Positions 31,194 through 36,778 of a DNA stretch of 64,000 nucleotides are shown here, piece by piece. The stretch is from Leptospirales bacterium (GTDB lineage Bacteria; Spirochaetota; Leptospiria; Leptospirales; Leptonemataceae). The stretch's first letter is position 1. Each line of letters opens with the position of its first letter. The notes below the pieces were generated by a model, which was not told the DNA's origin, made no database searches, and saw only the letters and a program-made list of their open reading frames with translations. The stretch lies in assembly GCA_019694655.1 (NCBI GenBank), contig JAIBBN010000010.1:1-64000 (forward strand). Direction: 5' to 3'. The position numbers were made by a program, and so were the translations under genes.

Positions 31194-31508
31194 TCAGATC
31201 AGCTTCAACCACAAGACGCCGACAACGATGAGCGCAATGCCCGCCAGCATCGGCCACGACAGAGTCTCATTAAAGAGGAGCACGCCCGCCACGCTGGCCC
31301 CCGCCGTTCCAATTCCCGACCAGATTGCGTATGCCATCGCCAGCGGCAGCCGATTCAACGACTGCGCCAGAAACGCAAAGGCAAGGCCGTAAAGTCCCAG
31401 GGCGGCGACAGCCGCCGTCCAGCGCGTCATCCCTGCGCTTTGCTTGAGAAGTACAGTCCCGCCGATCTCGCTGAGAATCGCTGCACCCAGAAATAGCCAG
31501 CCGATCAT
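31194..31508 (-). CDS. small multidrug resistance (SMR) transporter
   Basis: 104 residues, four helices, the exact SMR size. The essential Glu is in ILSEIGGTVLLKQSAG (position about 14), and PLAMAYAIWSGIGTAGASVAG with GIALIVVGVLWLKL complete the signature. SMR pumps exchange protons for cationic drugs or guanidinium as dimers; the subtype cannot be decided here. First gene of an operon with a membrane protein and a TetR regulator. Confidence 0.93.
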   Translation of the reverse strand: MIGWLFLGAAILSEIGGTVLLKQSAGMTRWTAAVAALGLYGLAFAFLAQSLNRLPLAMAYAIWSGIGTAGASVAGVLLFNETLSWPMLAGIALIVVGVLWLKLI

Positions 31509-32197: not shown

Positions 32198-33361
32198 TCA
32201 GCTATCGTCGCCCAGTACTTTCGCCAGCTGCCGCTGCATGGCCGCCGCTGGCGTAAGCCGCACCATCAGGTTGCGGACGGCACAGGCCACTGCATTCTCC
32301 ATCTGCGCCATGCGACCCAGACGCCAGGATTGATTGGTAATGAAGGCAGTACGCGGCCTGCGTCGCGCTTCGTAGTTCTCAAACGACTGGCTCAGAGCTT
32401 CGTTGCCAGAAATACTCTGCGCCAGCGCATCCGCCGATTCAATGGCCATACAGGCCCCCTGCCCGAGATTGGGCGTCGTGGCGTGCGCTGCATCGCCAAG
32501 CAAGGTGATGCGACCCTGACGCCATCGTCTCATTGGCGCAAAGTCATAGATATCATTGTGCAAAATTGCCTCAGCTGGCGTATCTGCAATCAGCTCGGCT
32601 ATGGGCTTGTGCCAGTCGCCAAACATCTGCAGCAGCGTTTCCTTCTGCTTCGCAGCGGCATCCTCCCGACCAGCAGGCGCGTTGCCGGTGGCAAACCAGT
32701 AGATCCGCTTGCTGTCGAGCGGTATGATTCCGAAACGACGACCTCTTCCCCAGGACTCGGAGCAAGCGACGCCTGTCGTTTCATGGCGCGCCTGGACCAC
32801 GCCGCGCCACGCGCTGTAGCCGGAATAACGCAGCCTGGTCTCCGGAAAAAGATGCTGGCGAACCATGGAGCGTATGCCGTCAGCGCCAATCAGCATCTTT
32901 GCGCGCGCCTGCTCGCCGCCGACAAAGTGCGCCACAACTTCGCCTTCGCTTTGTTCGATACTGGCGCAGCTGCAACCCAGTTTGACGCTTGAGGGCGGCA
33001 ATGCTTCAAGCAATATCCTGTGCAATGCGGCGCGGTGGATCGCGACGCTTGGTTCGCCGTACTGCTCCTTGAAGGTCGACGCATCCGTCGACGAGAGGAG
33101 CTTGCCGTCCGCTTTGCGAATCTGAATCTGTTGCACAATCGATCCTTGCCGGATCACTGCATCGGCGAGGTTCAGTCTACGCAACGAGCGCATGGCGTTG
33201 GCCGCGACGATCAAGCCAGCGCCCACATCACCGGGATTGGCAACACGTTCATAGACGACGGTATCTATGTCTGCTGCACGCAGTGCAATCGCCGCACACA
33301 GGCCGCCAATGCCTCCGCCGACAATGATTGCTGAATCTTCTCTGGCTGCGTTCGCTTGCAT
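32198..33361 (-). CDS. FAD-dependent aromatic-type monooxygenase
   Basis: 387 residues. FAD is bound through IIVGGGIGGLCAAIAL (GxGxxG), the DG motif lies in LIGADGIRSMVRQ, and the second FAD motif is TLLGDAAHATTPNLGQGACMAIESA. This is the group A flavoprotein hydroxylase pattern (salicylate hydroxylase, zeaxanthin epoxidase). It uses NAD(P)H and O2; the substrate is unknown. An epoxide-hydrolase-type gene follows upstream on the same strand, 40 bases away, and may act on its product. Confidence 0.92.
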   Translation of the reverse strand: MQANAAREDSAIIVGGGIGGLCAAIALRAADIDTVVYERVANPGDVGAGLIVAANAMRSLRRLNLADAVIRQGSIVQQIQIRKADGKLLSSTDASTFKEQYGEPSVAIHRAALHRILLEALPPSSVKLGCSCASIEQSEGEVVAHFVGGEQARAKMLIGADGIRSMVRQHLFPETRLRYSGYSAWRGVVQARHETTGVACSESWGRGRRFGIIPLDSKRIYWFATGNAPAGREDAAAKQKETLLQMFGDWHKPIAELIADTPAEAILHNDIYDFAPMRRWRQGRITLLGDAAHATTPNLGQGACMAIESADALAQSISGNEALSQSFENYEARRRPRTAFITNQSWRLGRMAQMENAVACAVRNLMVRLTPAAAMQRQLAKVLGDDS

Positions 33362-33401
33362 CAGTCATTGCTCCCGGATTGGGATGACTTTCCACGCGTC
33401 T

Positions 33402-34274
33402 TTAAGAAGTCGAATCGCTTTTGTTACGCGGCAATTTGCCAGAATCCGCAAGATCCAGCAAGGCGATGAGCGCCTCGGCTACTTCGCGCGGCCTTTCCTC
33501 TGGCGAAAAATGTCCAGCGCCGCGCAGCTGCGTCACCGTGCATTGCTGCAATCGAGCGGCAAGGTCCTTGCCAATCGCAAACGGGAAATAGCGGTCCTCG
33601 TCGCCCCAGATGATAGCAACTGGAAAAGAAAAGCGGCGCGCCCGTTCGCCAAGTTCGCGGCGCGGCGTGGTGCGAAAGTGGCGATAAAAGTGAGCAAACC
33701 ACTTCCGGCCGTGCGGCGAATCCAGAAAAGAAAGGTAATCATCAAGCTCGCTGGAAGAAAAGCAGCCGTTGGCTACAAATGGAGCAAACATCGATTGATG
33801 AATGATTTTGAGCGGTAAGAGCGAAATCAAAACCCGGGTTGCCGGCGTTTGCGCCAATGCCACCATCCCGTTAAGCAGCAGTCTGGTTGCAAAAGCGATC
33901 GCCCCGTGGGCCCGGGTATTGATCAAGGCCAGCGTACGTACGCGCTGCGGATTCTGCGCCGCATAAGCCAGCGCCATCAGGCCGCCATAGTCATGGCCAA
34001 TCAAATCGACCTGTTGAATTCCAAGAAGATCGAGCAACTTGCCAACCCGTGGAAACTCGTCCTCATAACGCAAACTGGCCGTGAGCGAGCGCTCAGAGGC
34101 CCCCCAGCCAAACCAGTCGGGCGCCAGAATACGCCGCTTGCCCTCAAGAAACGGTATGACCTTGCGCCAGCAACGGTGGTCTTGCGGATAACCGTGCAAC
34201 ATCAAGCAGGGCGAGCCGGCGCCGTACTCAAAAAGCTGCAGGCGAAGCCCGTCAATGCTCAGGCTGCGTTCCAT
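33402..34274 (-). CDS. alpha/beta hydrolase with Asp nucleophile (epoxide hydrolase/dehalogenase type)
   Basis: 290 residues from the ATG at 34274; the frame is open to 34316. The nucleophile elbow is GHDYGG, with Asp in place of Ser, as in epoxide hydrolases and haloalkane dehalogenases. The oxyanion region is LHGYPQDHRCWRKV, the acid is in IWGDEDRYFP and the His in GAGHFSPEERP. Co-directional with the FAD monooxygenase, which could supply an epoxide. It diverges from the desaturase gene. Confidence 0.85.
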   Translation of the reverse strand: MERSLSIDGLRLQLFEYGAGSPCLMLHGYPQDHRCWRKVIPFLEGKRRILAPDWFGWGASERSLTASLRYEDEFPRVGKLLDLLGIQQVDLIGHDYGGLMALAYAAQNPQRVRTLALINTRAHGAIAFATRLLLNGMVALAQTPATRVLISLLPLKIIHQSMFAPFVANGCFSSSELDDYLSFLDSPHGRKWFAHFYRHFRTTPRRELGERARRFSFPVAIIWGDEDRYFPFAIGKDLAARLQQCTVTQLRGAGHFSPEERPREVAEALIALLDLADSGKLPRNKSDSTS

Positions 34275-34370
34275 AGGACGACTGAGCACGAGCCCGAGAC
34301 TGGCGCCGTCAACCAAAAGGAAGCCCCGCAGGGGCCACAGCCCGGCCCCGGGCCCTCAAGCGAATACTGC

Positions 34371-34455
34371 TTGTCAAAACTAACGACGTTAATTATAGTG
34401 GCGGAAATAACTAACAAAGTTAGCCATGGCGCATCCAATATCTAACGATGTTAGA
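34371..34455 (+). promoter_or_regulatory. desaturase promoter with three TetR-type operators
   Basis: A -35 TTGTCA (34371-34376), 17 bases and a -10 TATAGT (34394-34399). Three palindromes share the half-site TAAC: TAACGACGTTA (34381-34391, in the spacer), CTAACAAAGTTAG (34411-34423) and TCTAACGATGTTAGA (34441-34455). Their centres (34386, 34417, 34448) are exactly 31 bases apart, three helical turns, so bound dimers would lie on one face of the DNA. The likely ligand is the TetR protein encoded at 35281. Confidence 0.75.
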
Positions 34456-34495
34456 CAATCGACCCGGCGCAAGTCGGAACGGGGAGACTTATCCT

Positions 34496-35257
34496 ATGAT
34501 CGCTATCCTGGCGTTTTTCACGGCCCACTGGTTCCTTTCGGCCTTTGCCCAGACCTTCTTTCTGCATCGCTATGCCTCGCATAAGATGTTTACGATGAGC
34601 AAGGCCTGGGAGCGATTCTGGCACCTCTTCACATTGCTGGCCCAGGGGCCGTCCTATCTAAACCCCTATGGCTACGCAGTTCTGCATCGCATGCACCACG
34701 CCTACAGCGACACCGAAAAGGACCCGCACAGTCCGCATCATTCTGCGAACTTCTTTGACATGATGTGGAAAACCAAGCAACGCTACGACGACTACTGCTA
34801 CCGGCGCGTCACGCCGCCGCGCGAATTCGCTCAGGGCGCGCCACAATGGCCGATGCTTGAGCGCCTCGGGCAATCGTGGATCTTTCGCATCGCCTTTGGC
34901 GCGCTCTACGCCCTTTTCTATATCGCTGTAGTCCCCGAAGGTCAATGGGGCTGGTACCTGCTACTGCCGATGCACTGGCTGATGGGACCAATCCACGGCG
35001 CCATTGTGAACTGGGGCGGCCACAAGTATGGCTATGTAAACTTTCCCAAAACGAAGGATGAATCGCGCAATACTCTGCCGGTGGACTTTCTGGTGCTGGG
35101 CGAACTCTTTCAGAACAACCACCACGGTCGAGCGACATCGCCCAATTTTGCGGCGCGCTGGTTTGAGATCGATCCGGGCTACCAGATCACGCGTCTGCTG
35201 AACGCCCTTGGCGTAATCCGCTTCACAAAGCAGGAAACGCTGGCGGCGGCGAGTTGA
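34496..35257 (+). CDS. acyl-CoA/acyl-lipid desaturase (delta-9 type)
   Basis: 253 residues from the ATG at 34496 with GGGGAGA upstream. Membrane di-iron desaturase: the His boxes are HRYASH, HRMHH and NNHH (in FQNNHHGRA), with the extra GGHKYGY. Two hydrophobic pairs of helices separate them. It should introduce a cis double bond into membrane fatty acids, in the OLE1/COG1398 group. Three operators lie upstream, and a TetR gene follows 23 bases downstream, so control by membrane-lipid state is likely. Confidence 0.92.
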   Translation: MIAILAFFTAHWFLSAFAQTFFLHRYASHKMFTMSKAWERFWHLFTLLAQGPSYLNPYGYAVLHRMHHAYSDTEKDPHSPHHSANFFDMMWKTKQRYDDYCYRRVTPPREFAQGAPQWPMLERLGQSWIFRIAFGALYALFYIAVVPEGQWGWYLLLPMHWLMGPIHGAIVNWGGHKYGYVNFPKTKDESRNTLPVDFLVLGELFQNNHHGRATSPNFAARWFEIDPGYQITRLLNALGVIRFTKQETLAAAS

Positions 35258-35280
35258 CAGATCCAGGGACCGCAGGCGCC

Positions 35281-35955
35281 ATGAACGCGATGGCGCCTGC
35301 ACGAAAACCCGCCGCCCGCGCCCGCCGTTCAGAGCGGCCGGCGCGCCGCACGCGCGGATCGCTCAGTCGTCAGGAGATTCTGGAAGCCTCGCTGGCCATT
35401 CTGATGGAAGAGCAGGTCGAGGCGCTGAGCATGCGCCGCATTGCAGAGCGGCTCAAATGCAGCGTGGCCAGCCCCTATGCGCACTTTACCAGCCGCGAAG
35501 AGATCATTCGCGAGCTGATTGCCGCCGGCGAACGCCAATTGACCGCTGAATTGCGACAGGCCCAGGTCAGTTCGCCCGATGTTTATCTGCAGCTCAACGC
35601 CATTGCCCATGCTTACTGGAGTTTCTCATCGCGCAATCGCGAGTTGCACAAATTGATGTTTAATTCCGGAGGCGGAAAGCTTTACCGCCAGGCCCTGCCG
35701 GCGCTGCCCACGAGCTACCGCGTCTTTCTGGAAACGATTCGTCGCGGCATCCAGAGCGGGGCCATTCGCTTTTCGCGGCGCAGCTATCCTGCCATCGCCC
35801 GCACAATGTGGTCGTGGATGTACGGGCTGATTGTTCTGGAGATGAATGATCTGCTGCGAGCGCGCAAGGCCTCCGATCCGGTCGAAGAGGGAATTGCCCT
35901 GTTTCATATTTTACTGCGCCGCGGCGAAGCCTTCGATTCAGAATCGAAGGCTTGA
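35281..35955 (+). CDS. TetR-family regulator of the desaturase
   Basis: 224 residues from the ATG at 35281. An Ala/Arg-rich leader precedes the HTH (EILEASLAILMEEQVEALSMRRIAERLKCSVASPYAHFTSREEI). The C-terminal part carries the WHG-type dimer and ligand domain of this subgroup (AYWSFSSRNRELHKLMF). It follows the desaturase directly and probably binds the three palindromes upstream of it, by analogy with FabR/DesT-like regulators; this is inferred from position. Confidence 0.88.
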   Translation: MNAMAPARKPAARARRSERPARRTRGSLSRQEILEASLAILMEEQVEALSMRRIAERLKCSVASPYAHFTSREEIIRELIAAGERQLTAELRQAQVSSPDVYLQLNAIAHAYWSFSSRNRELHKLMFNSGGGKLYRQALPALPTSYRVFLETIRRGIQSGAIRFSRRSYPAIARTMWSWMYGLIVLEMNDLLRARKASDPVEEGIALFHILLRRGEAFDSESKA

Positions 35956-35965
35956 CCTGACCCGC

Positions 35966-36778
35966 GTGCGTCCGCTCGCTGTGCTGGTGGGACCCATTGT
36001 ACTGCTTACGGATTTTTCTACGCGCGACTGGTTTGTTGGCGTAATGCGCGGGGTTCTGGCGGAGCGAGCGCCGCAGACTGCGGTGCTGGACCTTTGCCAC
36101 GATGTTCGTCGCGGCGACGTCCGCGAGGGCGCTTTCATGCTGCGGGCCAGCGTGCAGTACTATCCGGCCGGGACCGTATTCTGTTGCGTCGTGGACCCTG
36201 GCGTTGGTTCCAATCGGCGCGCCCTGGCCGCGCGCTGCAACGGCCGTTTTTTTGTGGCGCCGGACAATGGTCTGTTGACGCACATTCTGAACGATTCTGC
36301 AGACGTGCACTCCGTGGAAAATCCCGACTGGCTTTCCAGCAAGCCCTCGGCGACCTTTCATGGCCGTGATATCTTTGCTCCGGTCGCGGCGCGACTGGCC
36401 GGCGGCGCTCCGCTCAAAGAATGCGGACCGCGCCTCGATGATTGGGCGCGACTGGACTGGCCGGCCGTCGCCTGGCGGCGCGAGGGGGCTCATGGAGCAA
36501 TCATCTACGTCGACCGTTTCGGAAATCTGATTACTAACATCGACTGTGAAGAATTTGGAGCAAAATTCCCCAGGGCGGCGGATTCAGCGCTCTTGCTGCG
36601 CGCCGGCAGCGCAGTGATTCAGGGTTGCGTGCTTGGCTATTCCTCCCAGCGTCCTGGAGAGTTGCTTTTCTATCGCGGCTCAGCCGGGCTCTTTGAGATC
36701 GCCGTAAATCTGGGCGACGCAGCCCAGATGCTGCAGCTGCGCGCCGGCGATCCGGTTGAGATTCGCATCCCCGAGTGA
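35966..36778 (+). CDS. SAM hydrolase (SAM hydroxide adenosyltransferase, DUF62 family)
   Basis: 270 residues from a GTG at 35966, ten bases after the TetR stop. The family motifs are VLLTDFSTRDWFVGVMRGV, VVDPGVGSNRR, APDNGLLTHIL and FHGRDIFAPVAARLA; IYVDRFGNLITNI in the C-terminal barrel binds the SAM adenine. Members split SAM into adenosine and methionine with water (or halide in fluorinases). The halide-site changes of fluorinases are not obvious. Confidence 0.92.
   Translation: MRPLAVLVGPIVLLTDFSTRDWFVGVMRGVLAERAPQTAVLDLCHDVRRGDVREGAFMLRASVQYYPAGTVFCCVVDPGVGSNRRALAARCNGRFFVAPDNGLLTHILNDSADVHSVENPDWLSSKPSATFHGRDIFAPVAARLAGGAPLKECGPRLDDWARLDWPAVAWRREGAHGAIIYVDRFGNLITNIDCEEFGAKFPRAADSALLLRAGSAVIQGCVLGYSSQRPGELLFYRGSAGLFEIAVNLGDAAQMLQLRAGDPVEIRIPE

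Follow-up and report, generated by a model that had tools for sequence, protein, structure and literature searches.

Phased operators upstream of a desaturase-tetR operon: a probable lipid-composition switch in Leptospirae

What is the purpose of three short palindromes that stand at equal intervals upstream of a desaturase gene, and which protein binds them? The question is raised by a locus near the middle of the window, by which we mean the whole 64-kb stretch of DNA that was analysed. An earlier, sequence-only reading had proposed that the TetR-family protein encoded immediately after the desaturase binds the palindromes cooperatively. We conclude that the array very probably works as a switch that sets lipid composition, a kind already familiar in general terms. 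The features of the locus are as follows.

34371-34399, + strand: sigma-70-like promoter TTGTCA-17-TATAGT of the desaturase-tetR operon; 10/12 match to consensus, with a geometry that recurs in 23 related promoters
34380-34392, no strand assigned: operator O1, CTAACGACGTTAA, inside the promoter spacer
34411-34423, no strand assigned: operator O2, CTAACAAAGTTAG, 31 bp past O1 and directly 3' of the expected transcription start (near 34406)
34442-34454, no strand assigned: operator O3, CTAACGATGTTAG, 31 bp past O2 and within the expected 5' leader
34496-35257, + strand: PF00487 fatty acid desaturase of 253 aa, read from the ATG at 34496, with homologues aligning from residue 1
35281-35955, + strand: TetR-family regulator, 224 aa, with TetR_N and TetR_C_33 domains; second gene of the operon

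The order of the two genes, a PF00487 desaturase followed on the same strand by a TetR_N/TetR_C_33 protein, is that of the earlier reading. The desaturase scores 45 bits with PF00487 (gathering score 29.7) and contains the histidine boxes HRYASH, HRMHH and NNHHG; at 107 bits it lies below the curated cut-off of 400 bits for the NCBIfam family DesA_fam_desat (NF049918). An alternative ATG at 34448, within O3 and in the same frame, is without support from relatives. The regulator scores above the cut-offs of both PF00440 and PF13305, and its AF2 model (mean pLDDT 82.5) is all-helical with an ordinary TetR fold, giving Z up to 18.5 to TetR-family structures. The top neighbours include Bacillus FadR with stearoyl-CoA and FasR, plus many non-lipid regulators. 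The ATG of tetR lies 23 nt past the desaturase stop codon and a scan of 33800-36600 gave no second promoter-like site, which is consistent with a single operon and hence with autoregulation.

Several other genes lie close by. The longest open reading frame of a SAM hydroxide adenosyltransferase (SAM_HAT_N/C, 35846-36778, + strand) overlaps the end of tetR. On the - strand at 32198-34316 a FAD-dependent monooxygenase (FAD_binding_3) and an alpha/beta hydrolase point away from the operon; the divergent hydrolase (33402-34316) was considered as a second target and rejected, there being no tblastn match at the related desaturase-tetR loci fetched. A second, unrelated TetR-family gene (TetR_C_28, PF17937; 30257-30796, - strand) is found 4 kb away, adjoining a 138-aa membrane protein and a protein named by eye as SMR-type small multidrug-efflux-like (31194-31508). 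Elsewhere in the same genome a paralogue of the window TetR (42% identity; L051:3729-4385, G000:C3) adjoins an amino-oxidase-domain protein, and has no operator nearby.

The palindromes, with half-site TAAC, are centred at 34386, 34417 and 34448 as had been claimed, and the start-to-start distances between O1, O2 and O3 measure 31 and 31 bp. They share the 13-bp consensus CTAACNNNGTTAG, from which O1 departs at one position and O2 and O3 at none. At one mismatch or fewer this motif occurs nowhere in the 64-kb window except at O1, O2 and O3, and at 13 sites in the whole 3.9-Mb genome. None of the other ten, all of them isolated, has a correctly placed -35 box (the best matches 4/6), so they gave no sign of a wider regulon in the organism's own genome. 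A generic search for three identical palindromes with 4-bp halves within 100 bp returned three cases in the window; the array alone is therefore weak evidence and conservation is needed. The weight of the evidence for operators rests on the rarity of the motif genome-wide and on its conservation in relatives.

The first palindrome had been placed within a promoter, and O1 indeed lies wholly inside the 17-nt spacer. TTGTCA-17-TATAGT is the sole sigma-70-like site in 33800-36600, where 0.7 would be expected by chance, and by itself it is not significant. Among 23 related promoters the operator stands between a -35-like hexamer, at a gap of 2-4 nt, and a -10-like hexamer, mostly at a gap of 1 nt. 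In 17 of the 23, a hexamer that agrees with the -35 consensus at five or more of its six positions is located 2-4 nt ahead of the operator, compared with 1.2% at neighbouring control positions; the formal p-value of 2e-28 overstates the case, since related promoters do not count as independent and, for some degenerate ones, the site was a visual choice. An unbiased scan of 48 genomes with TTG-N7/8-TAACN3GTTA-NN-TA gave 20 matches, of which 12 are correctly oriented desaturase promoters; two more precede desaturases but on the opposite strand, and six are elsewhere.

Each palindrome could make a 5-bp stem, and similar hairpins with T runs are found at L079 and L083, so that the palindromes might be RNA hairpins or terminators and not protein operators. 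We find this hardly credible. O1 would not be transcribed from the desaturase promoter because it is upstream of the transcription start, between the -35 and -10 hexamers, and neither O2 nor O3 is followed by a T run or by a terminator-like match on the + strand. Separately, at L079:2980 and L083:3213, in two species, a strict palindrome stands upstream of a secreted alpha/beta hydrolase, and could be an operator or a terminator-like hairpin with its T run.

The position of O1 also bears on the sign of the regulation. One of the structural neighbours of the window TetR, FasR, is an activator (PMC7382501), and a protein bound to a spacer operator might conceivably touch the polymerase and remodel the promoter. 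That the TetR activates in this manner is nevertheless unlikely. The spacers of the related operator promoters are of normal length (16-18 nt) and their -35 boxes are good, so these promoters seem in no need of an activator; the downstream operators in the leader fit repression, and most TetR-family proteins that have been studied are repressors (PMC3511530).

The equal spacing had been read as three helical turns. What is retained in relatives is the helical phase and not the distance itself; with 10.5 bp to the turn, 31 bp makes 2.95 turns. The intervals between operators are 31/31 (window), 31/32, 30/30, 32/21, 30, 31, 32, 21 and 33 bp, with exceptions of 26 and 27 bp, so that related promoters have either 30-33 or 21 bp and the phase is the constant element. 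The spacings cluster at whole 10.5-bp turns (R=0.67 for 17 lineage-collapsed values; p from about 2e-4 to 5e-4 relative to uniform spacings), the data not separating a period of 10.5 from one of 10 or 11 bp. The values of 26 and 27 bp are out of phase; they come from two loci where several sites are degenerate (3 mismatches). It might be that only O1 works, with O2 and O3 being relics or chance occurrences at a functionless spacing: some related promoters (L016, L061) have a single clear site, and the spacing ranges from 21 to 33 bp. We regard this as rather doubtful, because auxiliary sites recur near two or three turns in many genera, and stay palindromic, with 0-2 mismatches, whereas the intervening sequence has diverged. 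The series of 21, 26 and 30-33 bp offers a natural set for phasing effects on the cooperation of TetR-family dimers.

A search of 345 Spirochaetota genomes found TetR homologues (E up to 1e-25) in 26, without exception in the window's own class. A scan of one genome per species over 84,980 species, with a reach limited by the two peptide patterns on which it relied, gave 23 loci, nearly all of them labelled Leptospiraceae, Leptospirales or spirochaetes and one just 'bacterium'. The earlier guess at the order, Leptospirales, agrees with both scans. Strict operators adjoin the genes of TetR homologues in many genomes. When pairs of TAACN3GTTA sites 8-24 nt apart were sought in 48 genomes of the class, 11 distinct loci were found, nine upstream of desaturases and two not. 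The absence of operators near homologous genes had been named as the outcome that would speak against the proposal; in fact sites recur upstream of the desaturases of relatives.

Do the sites follow the desaturase or the regulator? If a desaturase promoter counts as operator-bearing when it holds one or more sites at no more than two mismatches, then 12 of the 13 orthologues (identity of 50% or higher) from TetR-bearing genomes qualify, against none of the three from genomes that lack the TetR (G006, G031 and G039; Fisher p=0.007), this control being small and the genomes related. The thirteenth orthologue (G043) has degenerate sites at the same place. Second copies of the desaturase gene in G043 and G045, both of which have the TetR, are without an operator. 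In G011 the desaturase gene is on contig C9 and the TetR gene on C18, and the sites with their spacer geometry are kept; in G025 a desaturase that does not adjoin a tetR has two sites 31 bp apart. The last two cases are consistent with action in trans, and taken with the others they speak for a factor that acts in trans and goes with the TetR gene. Thus the proposed link of operators, TetR and desaturase is supported, in that the sites track the TetR rather than the desaturase and their spacings stay in phase.

A different DNA-binding protein might bind the palindromes while the TetR responds to something else. Three TetR-bearing genomes could be cited for this: near the homologues at G022:C2, G028:C178 and G023:C70 (42-50% identity) there is no recognisable operator, nor is there an operator-bearing desaturase in these genomes. 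We judge it quite improbable that another protein is the binder, given that desaturase promoters lack operators in the genomes without the TetR, that G011 keeps its operators although its two genes lie on separate contigs, that tetR promoters carry sites even without a desaturase neighbour (G004), and that the recognition-helix region of the TetR (CSVASPY), which is nearly invariant, is conserved together with the site.

In other genera the TetR-operator pair accompanies a PF00487 desaturase about 350-370 aa in length, for which BLASTP finds no significant similarity to that of the window (E 0.2). This second type is either upstream of tetR within the operon, or divergent from it. The arrangements fall into few clades of the TetR tree, with three changes where two is the minimum, the backbone of the tree having weak support. 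As the same regulator-operator pair serves the second desaturase type, the enzyme would have changed while the switch stayed, and this looks like a regulatory switch that outlasted the enzyme it controls. In genus g4 a third desaturase has a single operator close to its start. In G004 two operators 62 bp apart (L070:3204 and 3266) precede a malonyl-transferase (fabD-like) gene; a middle operator was sought between them and none was found (4 mismatches). The pair suggests that in this one species the regulon extends to fatty acid synthesis.

Other candidate targets were set aside. A strict site at FA_hydroxylase genes in G003 and G015 is within coding sequence at a conserved peptide, and is taken as coincidence. 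In G023 there are 15 strict sites, mostly copies of CTAACCCTGTTAG or CTAACAGGGTTAG scattered over the contigs and perhaps a repeated hairpin element; the many CTAACCCTGTTAG copies are unrelated to desaturases, and a site pair on contig C13 forms a long hairpin beside hslV. A pair in G020 has neither a TetR nor a desaturase.

We are inclined to see in all this a module spanning the Leptospirae, with one operator in the promoter spacer and auxiliaries at two or three turns, its enzyme swapped between two desaturase types that BLAST does not align, extended to orphan desaturases in single lineages and possibly to fabD. It would provide a concrete lipid-homeostasis regulon for a class of spirochaetes, with a defined operator and a fixed promoter geometry.

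Beyond the sites, geometry, conservation and co-occurrence with the TetR gene that are observed in the sequence, we infer that the TetR is the binder, that it represses rather than activates, that its sites cooperate and that it has a ligand. It is highly likely that the TetR (35281-35955) is an autoregulating repressor of its own desaturase-tetR operon. A dimer bound at O1 in the promoter spacer would block RNA polymerase, and dimers at O2 and O3, about three turns apart and thus on the same face of the DNA, would stabilize the repression and cover the start region. The protein would sense the acyl pool, most likely as long-chain acyl-CoA or acyl-ACP, and release the DNA, whereupon desaturase would be made and membrane unsaturation adjusted. 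That the ligand is an acyl compound is a fair conjecture, based on the target gene and on DesT, MadR and FasR; its support is weak because the fold neighbours include many non-lipid regulators.

In the largely non-subscription literature that was searched, no publication describing such a regulon in Leptospirae was found. Among the most similar systems is that of DesT in Pseudomonas aeruginosa, a TetR-family repressor that acts on a desaturase operon and on fabAB. It responds in opposite ways to the binding of palmitoyl-CoA and of oleoyl-CoA (PMC4418694); desBC is under its repression, and it also binds at fabA (PMC3462791). Like DesT, the window system combines a TetR-family regulator adjoining a desaturase with a palindromic operator, and presumably senses the acyl pool as well. 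The gene for DesT is divergent from its target across a 158-bp intergenic region (PMC3511530), whereas the window tetR follows its desaturase on the same strand and in the same operon; a divergent order of tetR and desaturase is found only in the relatives with the other desaturase type. The window promoter differs further in having three phased operators, one of them in the promoter spacer. DesT is not among the PDB sequence matches listed for the window TetR (the best 60 of 174 profile matches), though the two may still be related. MadR of mycobacteria, which acts on desA1 and desA2, is likewise a TetR-family, acyl-CoA-responsive regulator of desaturases (PMC8872791); it belongs to another lineage, controls mycolic acid desaturases at unlinked promoters and is not known to use an operator array. 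Bacillus FadR and M. tuberculosis FasR share the TetR fold, lie near the window model (Z about 16-17) and both bind long-chain acyl-CoA, but they have 11-17% identity to the window TetR and their targets are genes of beta-oxidation (FadR) or fatty acid synthase (FasR). In the TetR-tetA system two palindromic operators between the genes also repress promoters (PMC3511530), but there tetR is divergent from its target, which is a drug efflux pump. Control of desaturases by TetR-family proteins is therefore already known from DesT and MadR; notable here are the operator array and the apparent exchange of the enzyme under its control.
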